Shown: positions 393-60,917 of the stretch, one piece after another
How the letters are laid out: each line of letters begins with the position of its first letter
How positions within the stretch are numbered: position 1 is the first letter of the stretch
From: Bacillus sp. N1-1
GTDB taxonomy: Bacteria > Bacillota > Bacilli > Bacillales > Guptibacillaceae
NCBI RefSeq assembly: GCF_009818105.1
Contig: NZ_CP046564.1
Location: 3,906,001-3,970,000, forward strand
DNA length: 64,000 bases
Direction: 5' to 3'
Position numbers and translations under genes: made by a program
The notes under the pieces: generated by a model
Database searches by the model: none
What the model was told of the DNA's origin: nothing
Seen by the model: only the letters and a program-made list of their open reading frames with translations

Positions 393-429
393 TTCGACAA
401 ATTGTGAGCAAAAACAGGGGACAGGCACC
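393..429 (+). repeat. Dispersed 40-nt repeat, copy R1 (variant, 37 nt)
   Basis: It begins TTCGACAAAT and ends GGGGACAGGCACC, with a divergent middle. It lies 8 nt beyond the stop codon of the minus-strand MgtC gene, in the orientation used by almost all other copies. Confidence 0.75.
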
Positions 430-437
430 GCTAAGCA

Positions 438-1112
438 CTACCCTTCTACCTCAACAAACGTAGCTCCATTCAGATCTCTTAGCTGCTGATAAATACTAGT
501 TGTATGGTTTGATTCGAAAGTAAGCAAGCGTAGCTCCACTTGATGGTCTTTTTCCTTCGTATCGCGCACCCGAACGTGCTTAATTTCAAAATCTTTCGCC
601 TGGATTGTTTGCATAAATGCTGTGATGTCCGTCCCTTTTCGAAGCGTGATTTTTGCTCTCATTTCACGCTGCCTTAATTGACTTGGACCGATTTTTTTTA
701 TTACCCACGGCAGGATATTCACGCTAAATAGGATTAAGCTTGCCCCAACGAACGCTTCAAAATAAAAGCCAGCGCCCGCTGCAATCCCAAGCCCAGATGC
801 GCCCCATATAATTGCCGCTGTTGTTAGTCCTGAAATGGCATCGTTATTTCGTCTTAATATAACTCCAGCTCCAATAAAACCAATCCCCGAAACAACCTGG
901 GCTGCTAGCCGCATTGGATCGGTTCGGATGTTTGGAGATATTTCAGAGAAAGTTTTCGCAGATTCGATCGAAACAATCGTTAATAAACAGCTGCTAACCG
1001 CGATGACCATACACGTCTTTAAACCGAGGGGTTTATGTTTTAATTCTCTTTCAATCCCAATCATCAGTCCTAGACAAGCTGATATACATAGTTTTACAAC
1101 GACAACCACCAT
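438..1112 (-). CDS. MgtC/SapB-family membrane protein
   Basis: A 224-residue integral membrane protein with four or five hydrophobic segments in the first 140 residues and a soluble C-terminal domain of about 80 residues that looks ACT-like. The motif GIERELKHKPLG near residue 20 is typical of MgtC/SapB. I chose the ATG at 1112 (MVVVVVKLC) because GGAGG lies 11 nt upstream and it aligns with the start of the neighbouring paralogue; a longer frame begins at 1130. MgtC proteins help cells cope with low magnesium and modulate ATP synthase; which role applies here is unknown. Repeat R1 follows the stop codon. Confidence 0.85.
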   Translation of the reverse strand: MVVVVVKLCISACLGLMIGIERELKHKPLGLKTCMVIAVSSCLLTIVSIESAKTFSEISPNIRTDPMRLAAQVVSGIGFIGAGVILRRNNDAISGLTTAAIIWGASGLGIAAGAGFYFEAFVGASLILFSVNILPWVIKKIGPSQLRQREMRAKITLRKGTDITAFMQTIQAKDFEIKHVRVRDTKEKDHQVELRLLTFESNHTTSIYQQLRDLNGATFVEVEG

Positions 1113-1212
1113 ACGACAACCGCCCTCCAACAGGTATTTCTATTATTTTACCAGTAATAGGATCCTTGAATCAAAAAGAATTGCTACTATTGTTCATTTT
1201 GGTTAAAATGCG

Positions 1213-1250
1213 CAAAAAAAGAGCCGCTAGAGGGAACTCCGCGACTCTTA
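1213..1250 (-). terminator. Intrinsic terminator for the YitT-family gene
   Basis: Read on the minus strand, AAGAGTCGC pairs with GCGGCTCTT around a 13-nt loop, followed by a run of seven T. It sits 17 nt past the stop at 1267. Confidence 0.8.
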
Positions 1251-1266
1251 ATCTATTTTTCTTCCA

Positions 1267-2169
1267 TTAATGAATATCTTTTTTCTTGAAACGACCGCCT
1301 CGTACTTCTGCGATATCTGCCATCGCGAGGAACGCGGAATCGTCGTGGTCAGCCACAATATCTTTCAATTTCGCTTCTTCTAGTCGAGTGATCACGCAGA
1401 AAATCACTTTTTTGTCATCACCCGAAAAAGCGCCTTCCCCGTGCAAATACGTTACGCCTCTGCCTAGACGACTCAAAATCGCATCACCAAGTTCTTTGTG
1501 GTTGTCACTAATAATCCATACCGACTTCGACTCATCGAGACCTTTGATTGTAATATCAATCATTTTATAAGCAACATAGTATGCAAGAAGGGAATACATC
1601 GCACGATCAAAGCTAAATACAAATCCTGCGCTACCAAGAATAAAGAGGTTCGCAAACATGATGATTTCCCCCACTGAAAACGGAAGCTTTTTACTCGCAA
1701 GTATCGCAAGAATTTCCGTTCCATCAAGGGAACCACCAAAGCGAATCACAATGCCGACCCCAATTCCGAGAACAACCCCGCCAAACAAAGTGGCTAAAAG
1801 AATGTCATCTGTAAAAGCAGGAACAGGATGCAACAAAGCCGTCGAAATCGACAAAATCACAATTCCATAAAGCGTTGAAAGAGCAAAGGTTTTTCCAATT
1901 TGTTTGTATCCTATATAAATGAATGGAAGGTTTAGAATGAATAAGAAAATTCCCAGACCAATGCCACTTAAATGGGAGAGCATAATGGAAATACCAACAA
2001 TTCCTCCATCAATAACTTGGTTCGGTACAAGAAAAACTTCGAGTCCAACAGCCATAATAATGGCACCTAATGTAATCATAAATGTTCTTTTCGCTTTTTC
2101 TTGAAGCGGTGTTTTTTTATGAATTTTTGTTTCATTTATTAAATCTTCTAACGGCTTACTTTCACTCAA
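1267..2169 (-). CDS. YitT-family membrane protein (DUF161 plus DUF2179)
   Basis: A 300-residue protein. Residues about 30-200 hold five or six membrane segments with glycine-rich YitT features (FLVPNQVIDGGIVGISIML, RFGGSLDGTEILA). The C-terminal 80 residues are a soluble DUF2179-like domain (SRLGRGVTYLHGEGAFSG). Function is unknown; transport is often assumed. The start is a TTG at 2169 preceded by AGAGGAGG at a spacing of 7 nt; longer frames from 2193 or 2238 have no such site. A strong terminator follows. Bacilli usually carry several YitT paralogues. Confidence 0.88.
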   Translation of the reverse strand: MSESKPLEDLINETKIHKKTPLQEKAKRTFMITLGAIIMAVGLEVFLVPNQVIDGGIVGISIMLSHLSGIGLGIFLFILNLPFIYIGYKQIGKTFALSTLYGIVILSISTALLHPVPAFTDDILLATLFGGVVLGIGVGIVIRFGGSLDGTEILAILASKKLPFSVGEIIMFANLFILGSAGFVFSFDRAMYSLLAYYVAYKMIDITIKGLDESKSVWIISDNHKELGDAILSRLGRGVTYLHGEGAFSGDDKKVIFCVITRLEEAKLKDIVADHDDSAFLAMADIAEVRGGRFKKKDIH

Positions 2170-2203
2170 AATATTGCCTCCTCTATCTTCCATCAATTTG
2201 TTC

Positions 2204-2350
2204 TTATTTAAAATAAGACAAAATGAGGTCCACCACATGGTTGCCTGAGAGTTCCGATGAGAGTACGATCATTCCCCAAAATGGGAGCAGTAAAAGGACC
2301 ACCCATCCAAAACATTCGAGCGCATTATTCCACCATGATGTTTTTTCCAT
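2204..2350 (-). CDS. Small single-pass membrane protein, unknown function
   Basis: A 48-residue protein starting MEKTSWWNNAL with one hydrophobic helix (WVVLLLLPFWGMIVL, about residues 13-28). The ATG at 2350 has GAGGTGG 8 nt upstream, which is why I favour a real small gene over a chance frame. It lies 34 bp upstream of the YitT-family start on the same strand, so the two may be cotranscribed. I do not recognise the family. Confidence 0.55.
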   Translation of the reverse strand: MEKTSWWNNALECFGWVVLLLLPFWGMIVLSSELSGNHVVDLILSYFK

Positions 2351-2455
2351 CACTTTTTCCACCTCAACTATGAGTAAAATTTGATCCAAGCACGAATCAA
2401 TATCGTACGAACGTAATCAAGAAAATGACATAGCTGTTGCTAATTATTTTGGCTT

Positions 2456-2791
2456 TTAAAGGAATGTGATGAGGTAATTAGAGTGGACAGCAAATACATT
2501 CAGAAAGCCTCTGGCATCTGGTGAAATCTCGATTTTCATAAAATTTTTCTGAGGATAAATAAGATGCGGCTGTACATCATGCTCACTTGTAAATGGAACA
2601 AAAGTGCCAAACATCTTCTGCTTCTGAAGAGATACCGAGGAAGTATAAGAAATCATTTTTGCATCTGGAAGATAAGCGAATTCCGAGATTGTCGGTTTAT
2701 CAGCCGAATGATAGTCATATTGACTTAACTCCTGTGCTGGGTAAATAAACACAAGAAAGCCGAACAAAACCACTAACAGTAAATATCTCAT
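2456..2791 (-). CDS. Hypothetical secreted or membrane-anchored protein
   Basis: A 111-residue protein with a hydrophobic N-terminus (MRYLLLVVLFGFLVFIYPA), either a signal peptide or an uncleaved anchor, and no lipobox cysteine. The remaining 90 residues are polar and unrecognised. The ATG at 2791 has AAGGAGG at a spacing of 7 nt; a longer frame from 2875 lacks a ribosome site. It stands alone on the minus strand, divergent from asparagine synthetase. Confidence 0.6.
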   Translation of the reverse strand: MRYLLLVVLFGFLVFIYPAQELSQYDYHSADKPTISEFAYLPDAKMISYTSSVSLQKQKMFGTFVPFTSEHDVQPHLIYPQKNFMKIEISPDARGFLNVFAVHSNYLITFL

Positions 2792-2890
2792 CGCATTCCC
2801 TCCTTCCGCTACCATACTTATCCACATCTTATTAATTTTATCACTGTATGAAAATAATTGTCCACAAGGAGACAAAGGAATTACTGCTCA

Positions 2891-2930
2891 ATCGACAAAA
2901 CCTGCGTTTATTCGGGTGGTGACAGGCACC
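2891..2930 (+). repeat. Dispersed 40-nt repeat, copy R2
   Basis: A full 40-nt unit starting ATCGACAAAA and ending TTCGGGTGGTGACAGGCACC. It lies between the divergent genes at 2791 and 3114, so this copy is not in a 3' untranslated region. Confidence 0.85.
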
Positions 2931-3113
2931 ACTTTTTCCATCTCTTCCTAAACAGCGCGACTATTAAACTACTGTTTTCCCATTAAAGGAAATTAGTTCC
3001 ATTTTTACAGTATTTTTCACAGGTTGACCCTCACCGAATAAGAGGAATACGATGGGAAAGTGCTTTAGAAATTCATGAGATTTTAGCAAACTATCCAGAA
3101 AGAAGGAATTGTT

Positions 3114-4934
3114 ATGTGTGGCATTACAGGTTGGATTAAATGGTCTGGTGACCTCTCAACGGAGCAGGATACGCTAAAGAAAATGGCAGATTCCATTGCT
3201 CACCGTGGACCTGATGAAGAAGGGTTCTGGCTCTCAGAACAGGCGGCGCTAGCTCATCGTCGATTGATCGTTATTGATCCTCGAGGCGGTAAACAGCCGA
3301 TGTCGTCACCAGATCAACAACTTGTTCTTACGTATAACGGGGAACTCTACAATTATCGAGAATTAAAACAGGAGCTTCAGCAAAAAGGACATACTTTTAC
3401 ATCAAACTCAGATACAGAAGTTGTTCTACACTCTTATATGGAATGGGAAGAAGAATGCCTGAAGCATTTTAACGGCATCTTCGCCTTTGCGATTTGGGAT
3501 CAGCATGAACAAAAGCTTTTCCTTGGCCGTGACCACCTCGGTGTCAAACCTCTCTTCTACTCAAAACAGGGCGATTCGCTTTTCTACGGATCTGAAATCA
3601 AAGCGATACTCGCTCACCCATCCGTTCAACCACAAGTCGATCGTAAAGGCCTTGCTGAAATCTTCGGAATGGGCCCAATGAGAACGCCAGGACAGGCGAT
3701 TTTCAAAGATATTGATGAAGTTCGTCCAGGTCATTACGTGATCGCAACCGCAGATTCGATAGAAGAATATCGCTACTGGAAACTTGAATCACAACCTCAT
3801 ACGGATGATGTGGACACAACGACAGAAACGATCCGTACCCTTTTAAAAGATACCGTTCAACGTCAGCTCATTTCTGACATGCCCGTGGTGTCGATGCTTT
3901 CTGGTGGGCTCGATTCAAGCGGCCTCACAAGCCTTGCAGCTGAGGAGTTCAAACACTCAGAGAAAATGCTTGGCACCTACTCCATTGATTTCGATCAAAA
4001 CGAGGATCATTTCCAAAAGGATTTCCTAAGACACGATATGGACGAACCTTGGGTTAAGCGCGTTTCTCAACACGTCGGTACAGACCATCATTCTGTCACC
4101 TTTGGAGCCAATCAACTACTTTCAAACCTTCTCGAACCAATGAGAGGACGAGATCTGCCTGGCGTAGGCGAAATCGAAACGTCGCTCTATCTTCTTTTTA
4201 CAGAAATGAAAAAGGATGCAACTGTTGCACTTTCAGGTGAGTCTGCCGATGAAGTTTTTTCAGGTTATCCATGGTTCCACCAAGAAAAATACCTCGATGC
4301 CGAGGTCTATCCTTGGCTTGTGAATCTGAAGGGAATCTCATCAGTACTTTCTGAAGAAACGAAAAACCAAATTCAGCCTGAACAATATCAGAAAGAACGT
4401 TTCGCAGAAGCTTATGAAGAAATTCCGTTTCTAGAAGGAGAATGTGAGTTTGAGGCGAAACAGCGTCAAATGTCTTACTTTTTCATCACGCGCTTCCTTC
4501 CATTTATGCTCGATCGAAAAGACCGCGCGAGTATGAAAACGGGTTTTGAAGTACGCGTACCATTCTGCGATTATCGCATTGTGGAATACTTATGGAATGT
4601 GCCAATTGATTATAAAAATGTGGATAACATCGAGAAAGGCATTCTGCGCCGCGCTCTAAAAGGAACCCTTCCAGACGATGTTCTTTATCGCAAAAAGAGC
4701 GCATATCCAAGTGACAAAGATCCTGTTTACTTGAAAGGTGTGCAAAAATGGATGCTCGACATTCTAGATAATCCAAATTCTCCAATTCTTTCTCTCATTG
4801 ATACTGAAAAAGTTCGAGCGATCGCATCAAATCAGGCAAAAGGATTGAACACCGATCAGGCAAAAGGACTGCTTGACTACTTAATTCAGGTAAATGCATG
4901 GCTAGATGAATATGATATTGAGCTTGTCAGCTAA
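3114..4934 (+). CDS. asnB: Asparagine synthetase (glutamine-hydrolysing)
   Basis: A 606-residue class II amidotransferase making asparagine from aspartate, glutamine and ATP. Cys2 of MCGITGW is the glutaminase nucleophile exposed after Met removal. The N-terminal Ntn domain covers about residues 2-200 (AHRGPDEEG, YNGELYN). The synthetase domain carries the PP-loop SGGLDSS near residue 263. The protein resembles the AsnO/AsnH-like branch starting MCGITGW more than B. subtilis AsnB, judged from memory. AAGGA precedes the ATG. The gene is monocistronic, closed by the terminator at 4946. Confidence 0.93.
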   Translation: MCGITGWIKWSGDLSTEQDTLKKMADSIAHRGPDEEGFWLSEQAALAHRRLIVIDPRGGKQPMSSPDQQLVLTYNGELYNYRELKQELQQKGHTFTSNSDTEVVLHSYMEWEEECLKHFNGIFAFAIWDQHEQKLFLGRDHLGVKPLFYSKQGDSLFYGSEIKAILAHPSVQPQVDRKGLAEIFGMGPMRTPGQAIFKDIDEVRPGHYVIATADSIEEYRYWKLESQPHTDDVDTTTETIRTLLKDTVQRQLISDMPVVSMLSGGLDSSGLTSLAAEEFKHSEKMLGTYSIDFDQNEDHFQKDFLRHDMDEPWVKRVSQHVGTDHHSVTFGANQLLSNLLEPMRGRDLPGVGEIETSLYLLFTEMKKDATVALSGESADEVFSGYPWFHQEKYLDAEVYPWLVNLKGISSVLSEETKNQIQPEQYQKERFAEAYEEIPFLEGECEFEAKQRQMSYFFITRFLPFMLDRKDRASMKTGFEVRVPFCDYRIVEYLWNVPIDYKNVDNIEKGILRRALKGTLPDDVLYRKKSAYPSDKDPVYLKGVQKWMLDILDNPNSPILSLIDTEKVRAIASNQAKGLNTDQAKGLLDYLIQVNAWLDEYDIELVS

Positions 4935-4945
4935 ATAGTTTCACC

Positions 4946-4978
4946 AGGAGAGCGACTAGGTCGTTCTCCTTATTTTTA
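4946..4978 (+). terminator. Intrinsic terminator of asparagine synthetase gene
   Basis: AGGAGAGCGAC pairs with GTCGTTCTCCT around the loop TAG (one G-T pair), then TTATTTTTAG. Confidence 0.85.
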
Positions 4979-6711: not shown

Positions 6712-7898
6712 CATTTCTCTATATTTCGACGCATTCCGCCAATCTTCGGGTGGTGACAGGCACTCGCTAAGGCACTCGCGGGAACACACACCTCATCCCC
6801 ACCAACCAGCGGTCTCAACCAGTCATGATAAGCTTCCGGCGCTTCCTGAAACCAATCAGGCAACGCCCGTTCACCACCTGCTACAACCTGATCAAGATCC
6901 ACCGCATCAAGCGCGTAGACATATTTCGATCCCGCTGCCCGTCGAAAGATAACCATCACATCCGAAACCCCTTTGCGCACAAGCTCAGCTGCTTTCACAC
7001 CAGCTTGATACGCTTCTATCCGGTCCTGATTCGAGCACGCAAGCTGGCTTGACCGCTGATTCATCCCTAAAATATCAGCACGTGCTACTATGCCAAGCTC
7101 TGCCTCAGCAAGTTCGGCAAGCTGTTCTGAAATCCCACCAAGGACTTCACGTCCGTTAACAATTTTTCTCGTAACAGTCCGAGCATCCAGCTTTACCCCT
7201 TCACTAAGGACAACAGAAGCAAAACCATACTCTTTCACCGCTTCTCGAATGCTTGCTACCACCTTCACGGCATCATGCTTCTGTTCAGGGAGATAAATCA
7301 AATGCGGTCCCTCATTCTCATGCACCTTCAACAAACCACTGGCCGCCGCAAGCCATCCAACATTTCGACCCATCGTTTCGATGATTCGGACCTGTTCAAA
7401 ATTCCGCATCGCTTCAAGGTCCTTGCTCATATCGTATGCTGCATGAGCCACATACCTCGCAGCACTCCCAAATCCAGGCGCATGATCCGTCTCAGCAAGA
7501 TCATTATCGACCGTTTTCGGAATACCGATGACCTGCAAATCCACGTTCATTCGCTCTGCCATTTTCGAGAGAGCACGTAACGTCCACATCGTCCCGTTTC
7601 CACCGATGAACGCAAGCGTATCAATACCTGCCTTCTTCAAATTTCCAACAGCTTGAGCCATGTCTGCTTCGCTCAAGGCATAGCGCCCTGCGCCCAGCCA
7701 TGCGCCTGAGACGCTTCGACTCGCTTTTGCATGATTTCGCACCGAGGGATTCATCTCGATAAACCGCCCCTCCACAAGGCCCTGAAATCCTTGAAGAACC
7801 CCTGTCACATCTTGATCGATCTCATCTAAAAACCCTACAAGACTTTCATTCAATACAGCAGTGGGTCCACCTGCCTGACCAATTGCAATTTTTTTCAT
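6711..7898 (-). CDS. pfp: 6-phosphofructokinase-like enzyme (PPi- or ATP-dependent)
   Basis: A 395-residue PfkA-superfamily protein with N-terminal GQAGGPTAVLN, GGNGT at residues 99-103 and PKTVDND at 127-133. Lys128 is the residue typical of PPi-dependent and some atypical ATP enzymes. Gly102 is more typical of ATP enzymes, and Asn101 replaces the usual metal-binding Asp, so the phosphoryl donor is uncertain. The gene is last in a sugar ABC importer operon, so the substrate may be a sugar phosphate from that pathway. The last codons, including the segment ACHHPKIGG, are read from repeat R3, so the natural C-terminus appears to have been replaced. The stop codon abuts the terminator. Confidence 0.82.
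   Translation of the reverse strand: MKKIAIGQAGGPTAVLNESLVGFLDEIDQDVTGVLQGFQGLVEGRFIEMNPSVRNHAKASRSVSGAWLGAGRYALSEADMAQAVGNLKKAGIDTLAFIGGNGTMWTLRALSKMAERMNVDLQVIGIPKTVDNDLAETDHAPGFGSAARYVAHAAYDMSKDLEAMRNFEQVRIIETMGRNVGWLAAASGLLKVHENEGPHLIYLPEQKHDAVKVVASIREAVKEYGFASVVLSEGVKLDARTVTRKIVNGREVLGGISEQLAELAEAELGIVARADILGMNQRSSQLACSNQDRIEAYQAGVKAAELVRKGVSDVMVIFRRAAGSKYVYALDAVDLDQVVAGGERALPDWFQEAPEAYHDWLRPLVGGDEVCVPASALASACHHPKIGGMRRNIEK
6725..6764 (+). repeat. Dispersed 40-nt repeat, copy R3, inside a coding 3' end
   Basis: A 40-nt unit from TTCGACGCAT to GGTGACAGGCACT. It lies wholly within the 3' end of the phosphofructokinase-like gene and encodes part of its C-terminal tail. The terminator at 6672 follows 13 nt downstream in the minus sense. 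Confidence 0.85.
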
Positions 7899-11967: not shown

Positions 11968-12060
11968 ATAAGCCTCTCCTCTTGAGCCGCCAACTGTTTG
12001 GCTCACTTCATACTCTTATTATAGCGAAAAAGAAGCTTGCTTTAAAAGGGAAGTCCCATA

Positions 12061-13281
12061 TTAGACAAGAAGCCCTTTTTCCTTCAGCATTTGATCAATC
12101 TGAACCGTTCTGCCAGACTTCATCGACTGCTCTGCCGCAACGCCAACAATGACAGACCAGAGCCCTTCTTCCACTTTGGCTGTTGTTGTCGGCTTTTTCT
12201 CGATGTTATCGATAAAATAAACATGTTCATAATACGTGGCTCCACCATGACCACTCTCTTCAATATACGATGGGTAGCACGGTGTCGCAATGCGTGAAGG
12301 CTTCCCTTCCCCAAGAATTATTTCAAATTGATTTCGTGGACGGTGTGCCCCAAGAAAATCTTCGTTTTCGGATACTTTTAGACGCCCCTCATCCCCACAC
12401 ACAACGAGCTCCTCGTAGAACATTGGAGAGAACATGCAAAGCTGAAAACTCGCGCGAACGCCATTTTCATAGCGCACCGTCACCATGGCGTTATCCACAA
12501 TATCCGATTGCTCACTTTGATACTTAAACTCTTTAAAGTTGACGTCCATTCCTCCGTTCGCATACACCTCGACCGGTTTGGACTGGGCAAACAAGTTCAT
12601 GAGATCGAAGTAATGGCAGCACTTTTCAACTAGCGTTCCACCTGAGTACTTCGAAAACTTATTCCACTGCGCCACTTTATCAAGAAACGGCATGCGATGC
12701 TCCATCATGTTAATCATCTTCACTTCACCAAGCGACTTTCGCTCTAGCGCTTCATGAATTGCCTCAGAATATATCGCTTTATAGCGATATTGAAGACCGA
12801 TTTGAAATACAGCATCATAATCTCTGGCAAGCTCCGCGATCGTATGCGCATCTTCAAGCGTCGTCGCCATCGGCTTTTCTAGTAAAATATGTTTTCCTGA
12901 AGTGATCGCTTCTTTCACAATATCAATATGCGTATAGTTCGGCGTGCAGATAATCAGCGCATCTACATCTGGGTCGTGACAGGCTTCTTGTAAAGTTGGA
13001 TAAACGGTAAGAGGCTCCATGTCACCAGCTATGTTCGAGAACAGGGCCGTCGCCTGCTCAATGCTTTTCGGATTGGGATCATAAATTCCATGAACAGTCG
13101 CCCGTCCCTCCATCATCGTGACACGCATATGTTCCTGTCCGATATTGCCACTTCCAATAATCGCAAACTTGTAGGACGGCGGAACACTAGCAGAAAGATA
13201 CCGATCCGTATCTGGTAAATAATCAAATTTCTTGTTCCGAGAAATATACCGACTTCGTAGTTCCTTTGCTGCTTTACTCAT
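12061..13281 (-). CDS. Gfo/Idh/MocA-family NAD(P)-dependent oxidoreductase
   Basis: A 406-residue protein. After an unusual 35-residue N-terminal extension comes the Rossmann motif AIIGSGNIGQEH (about residues 39-50), then LEKPMATT with the family EKP lysine, and a C-terminal beta-sheet domain. Members oxidise sugars, inositols or deoxy-sugars; the substrate here is unknown. AAGGAGG lies 9 nt before the ATG, so the extension is probably translated. It is first in a cluster with a GntR regulator and an ABC importer, under a promoter with a perfect cre. Confidence 0.88.
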   Translation of the reverse strand: MSKAAKELRSRYISRNKKFDYLPDTDRYLSASVPPSYKFAIIGSGNIGQEHMRVTMMEGRATVHGIYDPNPKSIEQATALFSNIAGDMEPLTVYPTLQEACHDPDVDALIICTPNYTHIDIVKEAITSGKHILLEKPMATTLEDAHTIAELARDYDAVFQIGLQYRYKAIYSEAIHEALERKSLGEVKMINMMEHRMPFLDKVAQWNKFSKYSGGTLVEKCCHYFDLMNLFAQSKPVEVYANGGMDVNFKEFKYQSEQSDIVDNAMVTVRYENGVRASFQLCMFSPMFYEELVVCGDEGRLKVSENEDFLGAHRPRNQFEIILGEGKPSRIATPCYPSYIEESGHGGATYYEHVYFIDNIEKKPTTTAKVEEGLWSVIVGVAAEQSMKSGRTVQIDQMLKEKGLLV

Positions 13282-13400
13282 GAGCGAAAACCTCCTTGAA
13301 TGATTTCGTGGATTTCAAATGAATGGTAGATAAGAGATGGTGTCGAAATGTTAGCCTATTAAGTAATAATGTTTCAACAAACATCACGATCTTTTCATTC

Positions 13401-13430
13401 ATTATAATGAAAGCGCATTCAATATTGCAA
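13401..13430 (-). promoter_or_regulatory. Sigma-A promoter with perfect cre for the oxidoreductase gene
   Basis: On the minus strand, TTGCAA (13430-13425), 18 nt, then TATAAT (13406-13401). ATGAAAGCGCATTCA at 13407-13421 matches the cre consensus WTGNAANCGNWNNCW at every fixed position and fills the spacer. CcpA repression is therefore expected. The leader is about 110 nt. Confidence 0.75.
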
Positions 13431-13453
13431 GGACGTTTTCAAACGAAGAACCA

Positions 13454-13493
13454 TTCGACAAATAAGGACACACATCGGGGGGTGCCTGTCACC
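13454..13493 (+). repeat. Dispersed 40-nt repeat, copy R4, with inverted core
   Basis: It starts TTCGACAAATA like other copies and has the same 40-nt length, but the last 13 nt read GGTGCCTGTCACC, the exact reverse complement of the usual core. The next bases, GCCCGAA, complete a minus-oriented 3' box. It lies between two divergent genes. Confidence 0.85.
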
Positions 13494-13574
13494 GCCCGAA
13501 TTTCACATAAATGACCTACCCTCACAATATACATAAGATGGTAGCTTACTAAGACATGTTCGGAGGAATGTGTG

Positions 13575-14303: not shown

Positions 14304-14334
14304 AAACTCCCCAGCCAACCGGCCAGGGAGTTTT
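14304..14334. terminator. Intrinsic terminator between convergent genes
   Basis: AAACTCCC pairs with GGGAGTTT, with additional GCC/GGC pairing and a short loop. T runs are short on both sides. It abuts repeat R5 with no gap and probably also ends the minus-strand permease transcript. Confidence 0.7.
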
Positions 14335-14372
14335 CGACATAATATGACTCTATTCGGGTGGTGACAGGCACC
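14333..14372 (+). repeat. Dispersed 40-nt repeat, copy R5
   Basis: A 40-nt unit from TTCGACATAA to TTCGGGTGGTGACAGGCACC. It lies between the permease stop (14388, minus) and the terminator at 14304-14334. Confidence 0.87.
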
Positions 14373-18012: not shown

Positions 18013-18052
18013 TTCGACAATATATGAGCTATTCCGGGTGGTGACAGGCACT
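18013..18052 (+). repeat. Dispersed 40-nt repeat, copy R6
   Basis: A 40-nt unit from TTCGACAATA to GGGTGGTGACAGGCACT. It lies between the chromate transporter stop (18067, minus) and its terminator. Confidence 0.87.
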
Positions 18053-19205: not shown

Positions 19206-20822
19206 TTAATAAGCGGCTATCGTTCCGTCTGTTCTTGATTCTGTCCCTCCGAAAAAAGTGCCTGACTGCTGATCACGCCAAATAATTTGTCCGCGGCCGA
19301 ACGCCCCTTTTTCCAGTTGAAATTCAATTTCATGTCCTTTTCGGCAAAGCGCCTCAGCAAGATAAGGAGGGAACGTCGATTCGACCCACACTCGCTTCCC
19401 ATCAACCCACTGCCACCTCGGCGCATCAAGCGCAGATTGTGGGTTCAAATGAAAATCAATCATATTCGTAATTACCTGTAAATGTCCCTGTGGCTGCATA
19501 AAGCCTCCCATTACACCAAATGGCCCAACCTCTTTACCGTCTTTACTAAGAAATCCAGGAATGATTGTATGATACGTTCGCTTTCCACCTTTTAACGCAT
19601 TATCATGCTCAGGATCCATCGAAAAGTTATGCCCGCGATTTTGAAGCGCAATCCCGGTGCCAGGCACCACAAGTCCTGAACCAAACCCCATGTAATTACT
19701 TTGAATAAACGACACCATGTTTCCTTCGTCATCAGCCGTCGCTAAATAAACGGTGCCCCCTTTAGGAGGTTGTCCTGGTGACGGCACAAGCGCTTCATCG
19801 CCAATTAACTGCCGGCGACTTGCCCCATATGTAGGCGAGAGTAGATCCCGAACTGCAACTGACATTTCCTGCTCATCGGTAATGTACTTCTGTCCATCCG
19901 AGAAAGCGAGCTTCATCGCTTCAATTTGCTTATGATAGGTATCGACGGAATCTTTATGATCAAACTCAAATCCATTTAAAATATTCAGCGCAGACAACGC
20001 AATGAGCCCCTGTCCATTCGGCGGAATCTCCCAAACGTCATACCCACGATACTGAACCGAAATCGGATCAACCCACTCAGGCTTAAATATCGAAAGATCT
20101 TCCTTCGTCAAATACCCACTATACGCTTTCGAAAAAGCATCAATCTGATCAGCAATCTCTCCTTGATAAAAAGACACCGCATCCGTTTCCGCGATTTTTC
20201 GTAACGTTTCCGCGTGACCTTTCGACTTCCAAACCTCGCCCACTTCCGGCGCACGACCGGCAGGAGCAAACGTTTCAAACCAGTGCTGAAACTCCTCGTC
20301 CTTTAACTCTTTTTCAAAATGAGCGTAAGCATCCTTCCAAAACTTACTTAAAGTTGGCGAAACCGGATACCCCTCTTCCGCATAGTGAATCGCTGGCGCA
20401 AGGACCTCTTTTAACGAAAGCTTTCCAAATCGTTTCGACAAAGCGGCCCACGATGCCGGAACACCTGGCACAGTAACAGGAATCCACCCATATTTCGGAA
20501 TTTCATTATACCCACGTTCGTTGACTGAATCAATGGAAATCGACTTCGGCGCTGGCCCACTTCCGTTCAAGCCGTACAATTCACCTTTCGTCCAAACAAG
20601 GGCAAACGCATCCCCGCCAATCCCATTTGAAGTCGGCTCGACAACCGTGAGGACTGCTGCTGTTGCGATCGCCGCGTCGATCGCATTCCCTCCATTTTTC
20701 AAAAGATCTAGCCCTGCCTGTGCAGCTAGTGGCTGGGATGTTGCCACCATTCCTTTATTGGCTACCGTTGTCATCCGTTGAGAAGCATAGGGATAATGTA
20801 AGTAATCCGTCGTCATGGACAT
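19206..20822 (-). CDS. Gamma-glutamyltransferase-family Ntn hydrolase (YwrD-like)
   Basis: A 538-residue protein with the family N-terminus (MVATSQPLAAQAGLDLLKNGG, NAIDAAIATAAVLTVVEPTSNGIGGD). The autoprocessing region is GGTVYLATADDEGN, with a threonine as the expected new N-terminal nucleophile (about residue 360). No classical signal peptide is visible, matching cytoplasmic YwrD rather than secreted Ggt. AAAGGAG lies 4 nt before the first ATG and 10 nt before a second ATG two codons later. It is probably cotranscribed with the chromate pair. Confidence 0.87.
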   Translation of the reverse strand: MSMTTDYLHYPYASQRMTTVANKGMVATSQPLAAQAGLDLLKNGGNAIDAAIATAAVLTVVEPTSNGIGGDAFALVWTKGELYGLNGSGPAPKSISIDSVNERGYNEIPKYGWIPVTVPGVPASWAALSKRFGKLSLKEVLAPAIHYAEEGYPVSPTLSKFWKDAYAHFEKELKDEEFQHWFETFAPAGRAPEVGEVWKSKGHAETLRKIAETDAVSFYQGEIADQIDAFSKAYSGYLTKEDLSIFKPEWVDPISVQYRGYDVWEIPPNGQGLIALSALNILNGFEFDHKDSVDTYHKQIEAMKLAFSDGQKYITDEQEMSVAVRDLLSPTYGASRRQLIGDEALVPSPGQPPKGGTVYLATADDEGNMVSFIQSNYMGFGSGLVVPGTGIALQNRGHNFSMDPEHDNALKGGKRTYHTIIPGFLSKDGKEVGPFGVMGGFMQPQGHLQVITNMIDFHLNPQSALDAPRWQWVDGKRVWVESTFPPYLAEALCRKGHEIEFQLEKGAFGRGQIIWRDQQSGTFFGGTESRTDGTIAAY

Positions 20823-36865: not shown

Positions 36866-36905
36866 TTCGACAAATACTTACACCATTCGGGCAGTGACAG
36901 GCACC
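36866..36905 (+). repeat. Dispersed 40-nt repeat, copy R7
   Basis: A 40-nt unit from TTCGACAAATA to GTGACAGGCACC, with GGGCAG in place of GGGTGG. It lies 8 nt past the stop of the gene at 36914 (minus) and before its terminator. Confidence 0.87.
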
Positions 36906-43861: not shown

Positions 43862-43901
43862 TTCGACAAATAGTTCCAAATATCGGGTGGTGAAAGGCAC
43901 T
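43862..43901 (+). repeat. Dispersed 40-nt repeat, copy R8
   Basis: A 40-nt unit from TTCGACAAATA to GGGTGGTGAAAGGCACT (two changes in the core). It lies 54 nt past the stop of the oxidoreductase at 43956 (minus), after the hairpin region at 43911. Confidence 0.83.
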
Positions 43902-52763: not shown

Positions 52764-52793
52764 TTCGACAAATAACGGGGGGTGACAGGCACC
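52764..52793 (+). repeat. Dispersed repeat, copy R9 (30 nt)
   Basis: It starts TTCGACAAATAA and ends GGGGTGACAGGCACC but is exactly 10 nt shorter than the standard unit, with the variable middle missing. It lies between divergent genes; 52590-52867 holds nothing else recognised. Confidence 0.83.
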
Positions 52794-52867
52794 ACTAATT
52801 TTTTTCTCCCCCCATGCCCCTTTTCGCTCTTTTCAAACGATATATAGAGTGAAAGGAGGTGATCAAC

Positions 52868-53086
52868 ATGGCAACAGCATCTCTCATGGATACGCAGCTT
52901 CGCCTGGTTCTTGAAATAGGAGTTGATGAAAACGGCAAGTCGATCTTTCGTAGCAAGAACTTCAATAACGTGAAAACATCCGCTACGCCCGATGCGCTCT
53001 TCGCGGTCGCATTAGCGCTAGCACCGCTTCAACAGCACAACCTGTTTGCAGTTGAGCGAAATGACTCTTCTGACCTTCAGGCGTAA
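52868..53086 (+). CDS. DUF1659 small protein
   Basis: A 72-residue protein starting MATASLMDTQLRLVLEIGVDENGK and matching the DUF1659 pattern (SKNFNNVKTSATPDALFAVALALAPLQ). AAAGGAGGTGATCAAC precedes the ATG at 52868. DUF1659 genes usually lie next to DUF2922 genes in Bacillaceae, as here. Function is unknown. Confidence 0.85.
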   Translation: MATASLMDTQLRLVLEIGVDENGKSIFRSKNFNNVKTSATPDALFAVALALAPLQQHNLFAVERNDSSDLQA

Positions 53087-53675
53087 GCAACAAGAGCAGC
53101 ACAATTACTAAGAAAGGAGGGTACCAATTATGGCGAAAACACTTGAACTTCAATTCAATACGCGTGACAACAAGCCATTTTCCATCACACTGACTGATCC
53201 AGTTGAACCCGTAAATCCAGTAACCATTGCCGCAGCAATGGATGCGATCATCACGCAAAACTGCTTCACAACAAGCGGTGGTGATGTTGTGGCTAAGAAA
53301 GGCGCGCGCATCATTGAACGGAACGAAAACGACATTATCATTGGCTAATTGATTTTGAGGAAGGGCAATTGTCCTTCCTCTTTCGTCTGTGCAAAAAAGG
53401 AAGAGATCAGCTGTCCCCTCATTCTTAGTACGCTCTTTCACAATAAGTTTTAGTTCTTCCATTTCATCTAATTGCAGTTCTTGATAAATCATGATTTGAG
53501 ACAGTCCAAGGAGGATGACTCCAAAGAAAAAACTAGTCATGATCATAACAAAACCATTAGACCAGGATAAAGAAGTATTCCAAACAATGATGCCGGCGAT
53601 CGTTCCAAAGATAAGGATGAACCAGCCTACCAGGAAAGCAGCAACTTTAATCCCACTGTCTTGTTTTGTTTTCAT
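52983..53675 (-). CDS. Small membrane protein frame running antisense through DUF2922 (3' end doubtful)
   Basis: Codons 1-90 look real: two membrane helices (VAAFLVGWFILIFGTIAGIIVW and FVMIMTSFFFGVILLGLSQIM) followed by a charged tail (DEMEELKLIVKERTKNEG). After about base 53385 the frame enters the opposite strand of a terminator and of the DUF2922 and DUF1659 genes, where the translation is composed of antisense codons. The native stop was probably lost by mutation or frameshift near 53400. A start at 53675 lies just after an AGGGGG-like site. Confidence 0.35.
   Translation of the reverse strand: MKTKQDSGIKVAAFLVGWFILIFGTIAGIIVWNTSLSWSNGFVMIMTSFFFGVILLGLSQIMIYQELQLDEMEELKLIVKERTKNEGTADLFLFCTDERGRTIALPQNQLANDNVVFVPFNDARAFLSHNITTACCEAVLRDDRIHCCGNGYWIYGFNWISQCDGKWLVVTRIELKFKCFRHNWYPPFLVIVLLLLLTPEGQKSHFAQLQTGCAVEAVLALMRPRRAHRA
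53130..53348 (+). CDS. DUF2922 small protein
   Basis: A 72-residue protein of the DUF2922 type: MAKTLELQFNTRDNKPFSIT near the start, then PVNPVTIAAAMDAIITQNCF and GARIIERNEND. AAAGGAGGG precedes the ATG. It forms a two-gene unit with DUF1659 and is closed by a terminator. Function is unknown. Confidence 0.87.
   Translation: MAKTLELQFNTRDNKPFSITLTDPVEPVNPVTIAAAMDAIITQNCFTTSGGDVVAKKGARIIERNENDIIIG
53357..53384 (+). terminator. Intrinsic terminator of the DUF1659-DUF2922 unit
   Basis: GAGGAAGG pairs with CCTTCCTC around an A/T-rich loop that itself pairs (GCAATTGT), followed by TTTCGTCT. Confidence 0.78.
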
Positions 53676-53750
53676 ATGACCCCCTCACTCTCTATTAGCA
53701 TTAACATAATATAGAAACAACTAGACTACTAAAGGGCGCTTTTATCATTT

Positions 53751-53785
53751 ATAAAAAGCATCACTAAAAATTCCCCAGTGATGCT
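53751..53785 (-). terminator. Intrinsic terminator of the pRiA4b ORF-3-like gene
   Basis: AGCATCACT pairs with AGTGATGCT around an 11-nt loop, with TTTTTAT following on the minus strand. Confidence 0.8.
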
Positions 53786-53838
53786 CTAAACAGTGTGTTA
53801 ATTAAATACCTACGGACGTTGCTTCTTGCTATAATGAT

Positions 53839-54912
53839 TTATTTCTTCAACCAAAAATTAACCTCATCCTGATTAAACGGCTTATACCCTTGAGAGGCAC
53901 CCCAATTCACCATATGATCATAGTCAGGATGATTGGGATCACGAATAATATGGAGAAACTCCTCAAAACCGCCTTCTCCACCAACGTCCTCAGGCGGGGC
54001 ATTTCCTTCCCCATCAAGGCAAACAGGATCATTAGAATGAACATTTTCGATAATTTTCTCAACCTTAATTTCATGCACCCAGTGATCACCATAGTCATAC
54101 GTGTAAACGATTCGAGCAGGCAGGTAATCCGAAAGCTTCTTCTCTGATTCTAAAACCATTGGCGTCTCCCCCTGAAACTCAAAAGCATGTTTACTGCTGA
54201 CTAAGTTCACGAGCGGCTGCTCATTTTCAGTCGAGTAAACCATAAAATCATAAAGGTGGCTATCCATCCATCCGAATGCAGCTTGTAGGATGCGATGAAA
54301 ACGGGAGAAAGTTGTATTCGTCGGAACCCTTAGCCTACGCCAAACGGAATGATCCCTAAGTTCCAGCGTCACTTTTAGTTCAACGGCCTCCGTACTAAAA
54401 ATCGGGCCACCTGAAAGCTTCTCTAGATCCTTATATAATTCCTCATTTGGATGAACGTAGCTATTTTTTCCATCGCCATACATCATACTGCTTACCCACT
54501 GACACAACTCCTCTTGAAAAAGCGAATCATGATCAATCATATCTTCACCGAATTCCACATTTTCACAAGCTTTGTTTAATCTTGCAACAGTTGTCGGATT
54601 TTTTGTTTTTGCATAAGAAGTCTGCCCTGCGTTCTGAATCAACTGATCAATGATCTCTTGCTTAATCCCTTCCGCTTCAAACGTTCGTTCAATTCCTTGA
54701 AGCAGAAGTTGGTCCAACTTCTTGAGATCTTTTGCTATCACACCGTATAGCACAATCGCATAGCGGTTTTGGTCATTAGTAAAAACCACGACCTTCTTAC
54801 GACCAAGTTTAATCAAATTAGCATGCCAGGAATGTAGCGGATCTTCATCTACCTCCGTCGCAACATCAACCTTTAATTCTTGCAATAATTTCTTGGTGCA
54901 TTGAATTAGCAT
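53839..54912 (-). CDS. pRiA4b ORF-3-like domain protein
   Basis: A 357-residue protein. The C-terminal 180 residues carry the pRiA4b ORF-3-like domain (ELKVTLELRDHSVWRRLRVP, FHRILQAAFGWMDSHLYDF, YTYDYGDHWVHEIKVE, EDVGGEGGFEEFL). The N-terminal 170 residues form a separate domain often found with it. The domain name comes from a plasmid, and its function is unknown. I chose the ATG at 54912 with AAAGGAG 7-8 nt upstream; the open frame extends to 54933 into repeat R10. It is only 25 bp downstream of the histidine kinase gene. Confidence 0.82.
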   Translation of the reverse strand: MLIQCTKKLLQELKVDVATEVDEDPLHSWHANLIKLGRKKVVVFTNDQNRYAIVLYGVIAKDLKKLDQLLLQGIERTFEAEGIKQEIIDQLIQNAGQTSYAKTKNPTTVARLNKACENVEFGEDMIDHDSLFQEELCQWVSSMMYGDGKNSYVHPNEELYKDLEKLSGGPIFSTEAVELKVTLELRDHSVWRRLRVPTNTTFSRFHRILQAAFGWMDSHLYDFMVYSTENEQPLVNLVSSKHAFEFQGETPMVLESEKKLSDYLPARIVYTYDYGDHWVHEIKVEKIIENVHSNDPVCLDGEGNAPPEDVGGEGGFEEFLHIIRDPNHPDYDHMVNWGASQGYKPFNQDEVNFWLKK

Positions 54913-54925
54913 AGCAAGCTCCTTT

Positions 54926-54965
54926 ATCGACAAATACTTACAAATCCCGGGTGGTGACAGGCACC
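54926..54965 (+). repeat. Dispersed 40-nt repeat, copy R10, overlapping a kinase 3' end
   Basis: A 40-nt unit from ATCGACAAATA to GGGTGGTGACAGGCACC. It contains the kinase stop codon (54938-54940), encodes about the last nine kinase residues and ends 13 nt before the next gene start. Confidence 0.87.
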
Positions 54966-57261: not shown

Positions 57262-57285
57262 ATTAATCAAACGTTTGTTTAACCT
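57262..57285. repeat. 24-bp palindromic direct repeat, right-of-kinase copy
   Basis: It contains TTAATCAAACGTTTGTTTAA (20-bp near-perfect palindrome) and is identical over 24 bp, in the same orientation, to 59489-59512. Confidence 0.85.
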
Positions 57286-57289
57286 CAAC

Positions 57290-57483
57290 TTAGCGATCCG
57301 TTTTAGAAACTCTCTTAACCTCTTGAAGCAATGGATCGTATAGATAGGAACTTTTCTTCACGTAATGGAGTTCCTTCACTCTATCAAGTCGATAGCCCCA
57401 CTTTGTTTGTTATACCACAATCGTAATCCATCTTAAAAAACGAACTTCTCTGTTTCGGAAACTTCTAATTTCATCATTTAACG
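57290..57483 (-). pseudogene. Remnant of a small gene with an internal stop
   Basis: One minus-strand frame reads NDEIRSFRNREVRFLRWITI-VV, an ochre stop at 57412-57410, then QTKWGYRLDRVKELHYVKK followed by SSYLYDPLLQEVKRVSKTDR and a stop at 57290. Both parts are protein-like and in the same frame. There is no clear start. The family is not recognised. It lies inside the interval bracketed by the 24-bp repeats. Confidence 0.45.
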
Positions 57484-57496
57484 CTCAACCCTTTCT

Positions 57497-58033: not shown

Positions 58034-58073
58034 GTTTTGGACAACTCCTTAATTAAATGGGTATGTAATATAT

Positions 58074-58766
58074 TTAATCAAAATGCTTTTCAATGTACTC
58101 TTTCTCTTCGTCCTTGGTTAGTAATCTTATTGCCTTATTTCCATACCTTCTATTGAACTCTCTAATTTGATTATGAACGTCTACTGAATTTTCAAAGTTA
58201 CCTTTTTTCCATTCACTCAAGGTATTGTAATAGAACTCATAATTTTGATATAGGTCTTTTTCTTTTGCTTTCTCAAGAATAGCTAACATATACTCAATAC
58301 GTTCATCGGTTATTTCTATATAATCTTCATGTACTTCAATAAAAGGATCACTTTCAACGAAAACTTTTTGATTTGTCATTCCATATATATTATTCATGAA
58401 CTCATTCTCAGGGGGAATAATTATGTCTTTAGTTGAATGTTCTCTTTCATCATCAGCAACTTCTGACTTATCAACGGACATTACATTATCAACTCTACTT
58501 TTCTCGTCCATATCCCCGATTGTTACCTGATTTTCTTCCTGACCTAAATCATAAAAGTTAGATAAGTATGGCGAACTTAAAATTAATACTAATATCATGC
58601 AGAGAGTTATAGAAAAAACAGGAAAAAATCTTGTAGAATAACGTTGCGACTTATTTTTTTGCACTACCTTTAAATAAATCTGCTCCTTCTCCCCTTCACT
58701 CACCTCGCCCTTCTTCAAAACCGTCTCATTCATATCCCTGCGAAGATTTTTCAGCTTGTCCTCCAT
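58074..58766 (-). CDS. Probable anti-sigma factor with extracytoplasmic DUF6241-like domain
   Basis: A 230-residue single-pass protein with a cytoplasmic N-terminus of about 45 residues (MEDKLKNLRRDMNETVLKKG), a helix at about 48-68 (FPVFSITLCMILVLILSSPYL), and an outside region ending in the same domain as the neighbour (EFMNNIYGMTNQKVFVESD, then WKKGNFENSVDVHNQI). Its position directly after an ECF sigma gene (ATG follows the sigma stop with no gap) and its topology indicate an anti-sigma role. No zinc HxxxCxxC motif is seen. AGGAGG precedes the ATG. Confidence 0.78.
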   Translation of the reverse strand: MEDKLKNLRRDMNETVLKKGEVSEGEKEQIYLKVVQKNKSQRYSTRFFPVFSITLCMILVLILSSPYLSNFYDLGQEENQVTIGDMDEKSRVDNVMSVDKSEVADDEREHSTKDIIIPPENEFMNNIYGMTNQKVFVESDPFIEVHEDYIEITDERIEYMLAILEKAKEKDLYQNYEFYYNTLSEWKKGNFENSVDVHNQIREFNRRYGNKAIRLLTKDEEKEYIEKHFD

Positions 58767-59294
58767 CTACTCAACCTCCTTATAAAGCTCACGAAGTTGC
58801 AATTTAGCACGCCTTAATCTCGTTTTGATCGTCTCTGTTTTAACCCCTGTTAACTCTTCAATTTCCTGAAGACTTAAATCCTCATAATAAAATAAAATGA
58901 TTACTTCTCGATATTTCACCGAAAGCGAAAGGACCTTCTGAGAAATCTCTTCTCCTTCACTTTTTTGAACGAGTATCTCATCTAGTCCAGTACCCACCTT
59001 CAAATTTTCGTCCCCGTGAAAAGGAATCATCGACCTGAACCACTTACTTTTCAAATAATCTTTGCAGCGATTGACGGTAATTTTAAACAGCCATGTTTTA
59101 TAGCTGCTTTCTCCCCTAAAATGATCGATGTTGTTAAAACAAGAAATAAATACTTCCTGCGTAATGTCATCGGCTACCGTCCAATTTTTCACATATGTAA
59201 AAGCAAGGCGCTTGATCGGCTCTGCAAAATCATCGATCAACTCCCTGAGTAATTCATTTCTCTCAAACTCATTCTCTCTTTTCTTCTCCCCCAA
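58767..59294 (-). CDS. ECF RNA polymerase sigma factor
   Basis: A 175-residue sigma-70 family protein of ECF type. Region 2 covers about 20-90 (LAFTYVKNWTVADDITQEVFISCFNNIDHFRGESSYKTWLFKITVN), and region 4 covers about 118-170 (SLSVKYREVIILFYYEDLSLQEIEELTGVKTETIKTRLRRAK). It resembles SigV/SigM-like stress sigmas. The start is a TTG after GGGGGGAG. A candidate self-dependent promoter lies 30 bp upstream. Confidence 0.92.
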   Translation of the reverse strand: MGEKKRENEFERNELLRELIDDFAEPIKRLAFTYVKNWTVADDITQEVFISCFNNIDHFRGESSYKTWLFKITVNRCKDYLKSKWFRSMIPFHGDENLKVGTGLDEILVQKSEGEEISQKVLSLSVKYREVIILFYYEDLSLQEIEELTGVKTETIKTRLRRAKLQLRELYKEVE

Positions 59295-59323
59295 CTAGCT
59301 CCCCCCTGGATTTCCCTGTATGA

Positions 59324-59352
59324 TAGACGACTCACTTCCCACGATCGGTTCA
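59324..59352 (-). promoter_or_regulatory. ECF-type promoter of the sigma cassette
   Basis: On the minus strand TGAACC (59352-59347), 17 nt, then CGTCTA (59329-59324). This resembles ECF promoters of the SigM/SigX/SigW group (TGAAAC...CGTC), implying autoregulation. Confidence 0.6.
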
Positions 59353-59419
59353 AAAAGTTCACTTTTTAGTGATAAAACAACTAGATTTACCGTAAAATGG
59401 TTTAGCTTCAAAACTATAA

Positions 59420-59464
59420 CACAAAAAAGAATCACAGAAAGCACGAGCGCTTTTTGTGATTCTT
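59420..59464 (-). terminator. Intrinsic terminator of the LysM-GH18 gene
   Basis: AAGAATCACA pairs with TGTGATTCTT, with inner GC pairing (AAAGC/GCTTT), followed on the minus strand by TTTTTTGTG. Confidence 0.87.
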
Positions 59465-59488
59465 CGCGTATGATCATACATATAGGTT

Positions 59489-59512
59489 ATTAATCAAACG
59501 TTTGTTTAACCT
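59489..59512. repeat. 24-bp palindromic direct repeat, LysM-gene copy
   Basis: Identical to 57262-57285. It contains the stop codon of the LysM-GH18 gene (59506-59508). The interval between the copies holds the sigma cassette. Confidence 0.85.
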
Positions 59513-60771
59513 TTCAAAACCAGCATGTTCTTCTCCACATATGCCCAGTTTTGAGGAAACGGAAACCGCAATCGCCAGTATGTTGCCCCAAGCAAATCAT
59601 AGACTTGCATTTGTTTGTATTTCTCCTTGATGCTTTGAATGTCTTCGAACCAAACCACGTGCTGACCCATCAAGTTATAACTGTAAGTTGGCGCCTGTGC
59701 TATCTCGTTGTATTGAATAGGTAGCCATCTGTTAATCGCACGATTTTGTGCACTTTGCACTGGGATCATTTCAGCTGGATTCTCCTGTGCAGGCAATGAC
59801 CAATCATAGCCATAAAGACTCATCGCCATCATCACTTTGCGATGGTTTATCTGACTCGTAGCATACATTAACATCTCTTCCACCCACCAGACGGGGGCAA
59901 TTGGATCCGGTGGACCAATCGCATAGCCATAGTCAATCGTCATCACTGAAACGATGTCCGCGATCTCACCAACCGCCCGATAATCTAGAAAGCCTACCAG
60001 TCGATTTGTCGGCATATCGCTGCTTTTCGCATGCGCATTAAGTTGAAGTGTTAGATTGCCAAGCCCCTTCTTTAGCTCTTTTAAAAATGACGTAAAATCA
60101 TTCCGCCTCTCCGGTGGCACAAATTCAAAATCAACGCTAACGCCTGCGTATCCTTTTTCCTTTACTGTTCTCACGAGATTTTGAACGAGCGTTGCTCTTC
60201 TTTCCTTATTTTGAAGCACAGTTTCAGCTAACTCAGGACTGAACGTTTGAACATCATAATTACTGATGACAAGCAAAGGCTTGATGTCCAGTGCTTTCGC
60301 TTGTTTTAAAATCGCACCATCATCGATTGGAATAAGGTCTCCTTTTGGCGTAAAAGAATACGTAAATACCGCTAAATAAGTAATCGATCTGCTCAGGTTG
60401 TTCAACGTTTCAAGATAAGGTGAACCTTCAATCGCATCAAAAAAAACGAGCGTTTCCATTTGATACTTCTGCATAGAGGGAATCCTGATTCTCACGCCGA
60501 CCGGGAGAGCCGTCGGATTCAACGCCGGGTTAGCTTCAACAATTGCTTGAACCGACGTCTTATACTGTTGCGAAAGATTCCAAAACGTATCGCCCTGCTT
60601 AAGCTGATAAAATTGTTCAGGTAGATCCTGATCTGGAATATATAAATTTAGACCAGGGACAAGCCGATCAGAGACAAGCCCGTTCAAAGTCTGTATCGTT
60701 GAAATCGGCACACCGTAGGCCATTGATATGCGCCAAAGATTATCCCCACTTATCACCGTATGAACCGTCAT
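59506..60771 (-). CDS. LysM-GH18 spore peptidoglycan hydrolase-like protein (SleL/YaaH type)
   Basis: A 421-residue protein with two N-terminal LysM domains (about 1-46: HTVISGDNLWRISMAYGVPI; 51-98: YQLKQGDTFWNLSQQYKTSV) and a GH18 chitinase-fold domain (about 105-421). The catalytic stretch GVSVDFEFVPPERR (about 213-226) contains the acidic D-x-E pair. There is no signal peptide, as in SleL/YaaH, which are spore-coat-targeted N-acetylglucosaminidases acting on cortex muropeptides. I chose the ATG at 60771 after GGGGGAG with 5 nt spacing. Confidence 0.9.
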   Translation of the reverse strand: MTVHTVISGDNLWRISMAYGVPISTIQTLNGLVSDRLVPGLNLYIPDQDLPEQFYQLKQGDTFWNLSQQYKTSVQAIVEANPALNPTALPVGVRIRIPSMQKYQMETLVFFDAIEGSPYLETLNNLSRSITYLAVFTYSFTPKGDLIPIDDGAILKQAKALDIKPLLVISNYDVQTFSPELAETVLQNKERRATLVQNLVRTVKEKGYAGVSVDFEFVPPERRNDFTSFLKELKKGLGNLTLQLNAHAKSSDMPTNRLVGFLDYRAVGEIADIVSVMTIDYGYAIGPPDPIAPVWWVEEMLMYATSQINHRKVMMAMSLYGYDWSLPAQENPAEMIPVQSAQNRAINRWLPIQYNEIAQAPTYSYNLMGQHVVWFEDIQSIKEKYKQMQVYDLLGATYWRLRFPFPQNWAYVEKNMLVLKG

Positions 60772-60877
60772 TGAATCTCCCCCCAATTATGCAGCAGGCT
60801 ATACTGTTAGTGTATTTTGGGAAAGAGGGGTTCATGAATCGTCCAGAAACCTAAGCGATTTTAACTCCAAGGACCAC

Positions 60878-60917
60878 TTCGACAAATAGTTACACACTTC
60901 GGGTGGTGACAGGCACC
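60878..60917 (+). repeat. Dispersed 40-nt repeat, copy R11
   Basis: A 40-nt unit from TTCGACAAATA to TTCGGGTGGTGACAGGCACC, followed by a partial echo, AACAGGCACC (60922-60931). It lies between the pullulanase terminator and the LysM-GH18 start. Confidence 0.87.

Follow-up and report, generated by a model that had tools for sequence, protein, structure and literature searches.

A phased-box repeat, probably a REP-like recognition sequence of a Y1 nuclease, at sites of gene-block turnover in Bacillaceae

Introduction

What is the short dispersed repeat that recurs eleven times in one 64,000-nt stretch of the Bacillus sp. N1-1 chromosome, and what does it do there? This stretch, the window of the present analysis (G000:C1:3906001-3970000; NZ_CP046564.1), belongs to a genome, designated G000, that consists of a single 4.5-Mb contig. 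A preliminary description of the window had delimited the eleven copies and proposed a genome-wide and cross-species pattern search, as well as a search for a co-occurring transposase gene of the kind associated with repetitive extragenic palindromic (REP) sequences. Using samples of 14 genomes of the same genus and 249 genomes of its order, we found that the element adjoins and co-distributes with such a gene, a REP-associated tyrosine transposase (RAYT), as had been proposed, and that synteny often breaks at its copies. We argue that the element is probably a REP-like recognition sequence of this single-domain Y1/HUH nuclease, serving as a point of deletion and exchange. The genus is probably Pseudalkalibacillus, because the nearest named records, judged by RAYT, carry that name.

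Results

A conserved element of phased boxes and a core

All eleven copies were recovered at exactly the positions first given for them, with the same lengths (40 nt in nine, 37 nt at 393, 30 nt at 52764) and with the 5' box read as (T/A)TCGAC, which is TTCGAC in nine copies and ATCGAC in two. The repeat is far above chance in the window: the long 3' box TTCGGGTGGTGACAGGCACC, exact in 3/11 copies, has 10 matches at ≤3 mismatches versus 0.00 expected from shuffles, and the 13-nt core has 30 matches at ≤3 mismatches versus 5.9 expected. The constant 3' part of the preliminary description is present, but is better written CGGG[T/C]GGTGACAGGCAC[C/T].

The element consists of CGGGTGGTGACAGGCACC preceded by one TTCGACA box (30 nt) or by two in phase (40 nt). 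Its 40-nt form runs from TTCGACAnnA through a decayed TTCGACAAAT to CGGGTGGTGACAGGCAC[C/T], and the middle, at first taken to be variable, is a second TTCGACA box in decayed form, placed 10 nt after the first. When the 8-mer at the 5' box was compared with the downstream 8-mer at shifts of 6-14, self-agreement was best at shift 10 (3.59 of 8 for 244 genus copies; 3.97 versus 1.55-3.08 at other shifts for the 153 two-box genus copies), and the middle is therefore not simply variable. Besides these 153, the 244 genus copies include 44 with one box only and 47 with neither, while the 114 copies from other genera comprise 68 short (one-box), 20 long (two-box) and 26 with neither form. The fixed length had been read as a sign of a structural or protein-bound element rather than debris; the element is indeed an evolved, conserved one, but the 40-nt length is a feature of its own genus, because the one-box 30-nt form is usual outside. 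As first described, all 5' boxes in the window lie on the plus strand and the core is inverted in place only at 13454. The loop of the core, in 254 copies, reads ACAGG in 195, CCTGT in 41, CCAGG in 11 and CCTGG in 7, so in-place inversion of the core is common and 13454 no isolated case.

The boxes are selectively conserved, and the sequence immediately beyond the 3' end of the core is hypervariable. Boxes at orthologous sites are 96-99% identical against 70-78% for the flanks, which upholds the early judgement that the copies are not random debris; in 83 comparisons of far pairs with both flanks matched, identity was 0.962 for the box, 0.997 for CGGG and 0.955 for the core, versus 0.70-0.78 for the flanks and 0.63 for the tail at +1..+20 after the core. 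Short tandem repeats (score ≥4; 183 copies) have a frequency of 10.4% in the 40 nt after the core versus 2.7% before it and 1.6% in shuffled sequence. In the genus, the tail units tend to end like the core (ACC versus ACT; 56:38 versus 18:38, p 0.0014, 66 ties), in a count from which palindromic copies had been dropped beforehand and for which two control stretches gave p 0.68 and 0.30. At G000:C1:1395717 (L044), a copy is followed by two more near-exact 15-nt units ending GGCACT, a tandem expansion at the 3' edge of the core.

The search beyond the window found copies throughout the genus and further afield. The G000 genome holds 57 core matches at ≤1 mismatch versus 0 for a reversed control pattern, so the window copies belong to a larger set, densest at 3.84-3.97 Mb (window included) and 1.07-1.52 Mb; 69 core-like matches were counted in 334 kb of this genome that were scanned. 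The exact 17-mer CGGGTGGTGACAGGCAC is present in 14/14 genus genomes and TCGGGNRGTGACAGGCACC in 55/249 genomes of the order, while one further genome of the family had no copy. A lone perfect palindrome, GGTGCCAGGCACC, stands without boxes at window 19656-19668, and the genome has similar solitary cores at other places.

A RAYT gene accompanies the element

The RAYT gene of G000 lies on the minus strand at G000:C1:3895482-3896060, 9.9 kb outside the left end of the window; we designate the copies around it cluster 1, and a second cluster in the genus, where no RAYT was found, cluster 2. Its product matches PF01797 (49.1 bits, cut-off 23) and PDB 4er8 TnpArep (E 0.0016), and the residues H60, H62 (HUH) and Y119 are invariant across 10 aligned relatives. 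The gene, one of three with PF01797 in the genome, lies at 3.8957 Mb, and a one-box copy stands shortly upstream of it. Across the 20 Y1_Tnp loci parsed out of 31, a copy was found within about 250 nt upstream at 7/7 type-A RAYT loci versus 0/13 others. At loci L112-L120, which overlap in part with the genomes of the seven type-A loci, the nearest copy is 162-204 nt upstream of RAYT in 9/9.

The association extends to other genera. Copies were present within the fetched stretch around RAYT relatives at L121-L124, L127, L131 and L133, and core variants only at L129 and L130; the stretches fetched at L125, L126, L128, L132, L134 and L135 held no copy near the RAYT relative. Order-wide, the element occurs in 35/42 genomes with a close RAYT versus 20/207 others, and in 27/34 versus 20/207 when its own genus is excluded, a close RAYT being a match at E≤1e-50, a cut-off set after the table was seen. 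Copies lie within 100 kb of RAYT in 16 of the 17 non-genus genomes with positions listed; 11 further genomes with both were left out of this count. Upstream of a second RAYT type, at L031 (G000:C1:4192433 region), stand palindromes particular to it, GGGGGTCAGG...CCTGACCCCC, which accords with what seems to be a separate repeat family for every RAYT type.

Copies near RAYT tend to lie on the strand opposite the gene. This holds for 65/73 copies in the 17 non-genus genomes and for 59/73 boxed copies in 18 regions that were fetched for holding both element and RAYT; counted by genome, 15 of these 18 are mainly opposite, 3 tied and none mainly same. The RAYT gene is on the G-rich strand in 18/18 regions, and 78/81 cluster-1 copies are on the C-rich strand. 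Nearly all copies in five cluster-1 blocks are solitary and on one strand. Inverted doublets were seen only in G190 (L273), about 72 nt apart at 2975/3047 and 8581/8652 relative to RAYT, in a REPIN-like arrangement.

Gene blocks often end at copies

Synteny was compared between five blocks of 100-150 kb around RAYT (G000, G009, G008, G005, G004), and alignments often end at copies: 57 interspecies copy pairs have both flanks in common, 47 only the 5' flank and 44 only the 3' flank. Both ends of the extra block fall within 40 nt of copies in 23/110 pairwise indels versus a null mean of 1.5 (maximum 6 in 500), and in 16/52 simple indels; at least one end does so in 61/110 versus 26.6 (maximum 40). 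In this null, ends were placed randomly in intergenic regions, and the pairs are not independent. A conserved copy may itself attract an alignment end, a caveat avoided by an intergenic test: 196/305 intergenic regions with a copy are broken versus 207/634 without (odds ratio 3.7). By ordered pair, again not independent, the odds ratio exceeds 1 in 20/20, with p<0.05 in 11.

Four such blocks in the window are listed in Table 1. G005 has three successive copies, A, B1 and B2, with a 3.7-kb block between A and B1 and a 2-kb block between B1 and B2; the 2-kb block is missing in G000 and G009, the 3.7-kb block in G004, and both in G008. Of the 14 genus genomes, 9 carry the whole 3.4-kb core of the block between A and B, in every case no more than 50 kb from RAYT, and 5 lack it or have other DNA in its place, so its absence looks like loss. 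One hybrid copy is left behind after each block loss. A single event, tentatively read, appears to have its junction outside the repeat, a few nt beyond the 3' end of the core.

The 2-kb block holds FAD-oxidoreductase and TetR-type genes and is found in cluster 1 of G004, G005 and G013. A relative with 66% identity lies in another region of G012, where it ends 5' of a cluster-2 copy in the same relative orientation; at that site, G001 has neither block nor copy, and only the copy is present in G000 and G009. Cluster 2 also holds, not adjoining a copy, an 80% relative of the 590-nt stretch that directly follows the copy at 52764. One 10-kb block in cluster 2 is bounded by copies. A gain in G000 is not supported for the 10-kb block that it alone carries among three genomes, because G006 also has it (2/14 genomes, 76%).

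Table 1 Element copies and copy-associated gene blocks (window coordinates)
Feature	Position	Strand	Content or property	Other genomes
Element copy, 37 nt	393..429	+	Decayed core GGGGACAGGCACC	Intact-core orthologous copies in G004, G005, G008, G009
Element copy, 40 nt	2891..2930	+	Two-box form	
Gene block, left end only at copy (3' end)	2931..4951		Asparagine synthase-like gene 3114-4934	Absent G008, G009; present G004, G005
Element copy, 40 nt	6725..6764	+		
Gene block, right end only at copy	12049..13449		Gfo/Idh/MocA-type gene 12061-13281	Absent G008, G009; present G005; other DNA in G004
Element copy, 40 nt	13454..13500	+	Core inverted in place; palindrome formed with next 7 nt; fold z -3.4	
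Gene block between copies A and B	14298..18013		Amino acid permease, class III aminotransferase, GntR-type regulator	Lost G008; other DNA in G004
Element copy A, 40 nt	14333..14372	+		
Element copy B, 40 nt	18013..18052	+		
Element copy, 40 nt	36866..36905	+		
Element copy, 40 nt	43862..43901	+		
Element copy, 30 nt	52764..52793	+	One-box form	
Gene block between two copies	52793..54940			Absent G005
Element copy, 40 nt	54926..54965	+		
Element copy, 40 nt	60878..60917	+		

Discussion

The reading that we judge probable is that the element is a REP-like recognition sequence of RAYT, and we infer that RAYT is the cause of the synteny breaks. In the mechanism proposed, RAYT would bind the element as single-stranded DNA and cut near its 3' end. 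Past cutting and rejoining would have spread copies near the RAYT gene; today, cutting by RAYT, or plain recombination between same-orientation copies, would make the sites points of deletion and exchange. The strand bias, the variability of the 3' edge and the same-orientation sites would be compatible with a Y1 nuclease that acts on single-stranded DNA.

Several observations weigh against it. In cluster 2, all 41 copies lie on the G-rich strand, the opposite replication sense to cluster 1, and most of the synteny breaks compared there are away from copies; even in cluster 1, about 70% of breakpoint clusters are >20 nt from any copy. A replication-strand cause of orientation, which fits the surroundings of RAYT, was rejected for its failure in cluster 2. 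The match of RAYT to NF047646 (73.5 bits) is below the cut-off of 80, and the element occurs in 20 genomes that lack a close RAYT, while 7 show the reverse. The consensus of the 244 genus and 114 other copies lacks the GTAG (or CGTC) end tag and has TTCGACA and CGGG instead. The hairpin is only weak in typical copies (z -0.1 to -1.9), so that the self-pairing once read into the GGTG/CACC ends of the core is weak; among six folded pieces, only the palindromic copy at 13454 folds strongly. The correlation between core and tail ends is absent in other genera (24:19 versus 3:3, p 1.0). Finally, 213 comparisons among six genomes yielded no empty site; the 7 rows that lack the pattern are decayed copies at three sites. 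Solo transposition of the element was rejected on this ground, as the lack of empty sites leaves no signal of it in recent times.

The strongest alternative, to which we assign somewhat less than an even chance, is that the copies are passive hot spots: old repeats kept for other reasons, acting as direct repeats through which ordinary recombination or slippage in replication removes the blocks between them, with no part for RAYT. The polarisable events do look like losses, as in the A-B block, a single hybrid copy remains after each, and the two clusters behave unequally. It leaves unexplained, however, the RAYT association, the strand bias and the hypervariable 3' tail, and in one case the junction seems to fall outside the repeat, shortly 3' of the core.

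A bolder proposal, which we consider unlikely, is a single-strand cassette system in Bacillaceae, integron-like in its exchange of modules but driven by another class of enzyme, in which a domesticated Y1/HUH RAYT would excise and re-insert blocks bounded by same-orientation elements. If so, the two-gene block with relatives in G012, element-adjacent at both places in the same relative orientation, would be one of its products. In integron cassette arrays, same-orientation sites bound gene blocks that are lost or exchanged, and the copies described here bound lost or exchanged blocks in like manner. Unlike in integron arrays, the nuclease is of Y1 type, the blocks are ordinary operons and most events look like losses.

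Quite unlikely, too, is a host-protein site, with the boxes binding a chromosomal protein and RAYT having merely spread them. The strong conservation of the boxes at orthologous sites, their phasing by 10 nt, which is one helical turn, and the lack of empty sites are consistent with it, and the reverse complement TTTGTCGAA of the 5' boxes bears an apparent resemblance to the Spo0A box. On the other hand, the second box at 10-bp spacing is largely decayed in the genus and as a rule missing from other genera, and the 3' end of the core often abuts stop codons, not promoters. Where the 3' neighbour is a gene end (56/81 copies in cluster 1, 16/41 in cluster 2 and 49/72 elsewhere), the core is a median 13-20 nt from the stop codon, as might suit a 3'-untranslated-region hairpin for termination or mRNA stability; such an RNA element is very improbable given weak folds in five of six pieces, no covariation between the first and last core bases, both core orientations and no Rfam match at gathering thresholds.

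RAYTs are domesticated transposases, long retained for reasons that are unsettled. The present family adds a Gram-positive case, with a defined site of different build and a strand bias relative to the gene. Its footprint can be measured: the boxes are conserved, the 3' edge is hypervariable and gene blocks turn over with their ends at the sites. The role of RAYT for its host thereby becomes testable in environmental bacilli.

Comparison with known systems

Neither the element nor a RAYT-linked repeat of Bacillaceae was found in the literature searched, which mostly excluded subscription papers, and a search with the core string returned unrelated titles only. TnpAREP of E. coli, Stenotrophomonas and Marinomonas cleaves REP substrates in vitro (PMC8266576), excision has been reported for REP doublets (PMC3116915), and REP clusters of Pseudomonas fluorescens are recombination hot spots (PMC11708052). 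Hot-spot behaviour as such is therefore not new.

Like REPs and REPINs with their RAYT (TnpAREP, REPtron), the element is a short extragenic repeat of tens of copies, tied to a single Y1/HUH gene and with copies beside that gene; the G190 copies form inverted doublets, and the repeat is seemingly specific to RAYT type. Unlike them, it has no GTAG foot, only a weak palindrome and phased direct boxes 5' of the core, and its copies are mostly solitary, on the same strand opposite the RAYT gene, with synteny breaks at copies. The atypical REPs of class 3 and subclass 2.6 TnpAY1 also pair RAYT-type genes with non-GTAG, weaker structures, and are reported mainly from Planctomycetes, Acidobacteria, Proteobacteria and Bacteroidetes in an article whose main text contains neither 'firmicutes' nor 'bacill' (PMC6006769).

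TIRtrons have inverted terminal repeats, with no Bacillaceae example named in the part of the report considered here, whereas our copies are for the most part in direct orientation and form clusters over 100 kb (PMC3733652). They nevertheless share with the present system a RAYT-like gene (TIRYT) flanked by non-GTAG repeats that sometimes form a dispersed family, and the TIRYT motif GGGGWSAS differs at one position from GGTGACAG of the element (PMC3733652). A further likeness is that, at L121 and L123, copies stand on both sides of RAYT and point outward.

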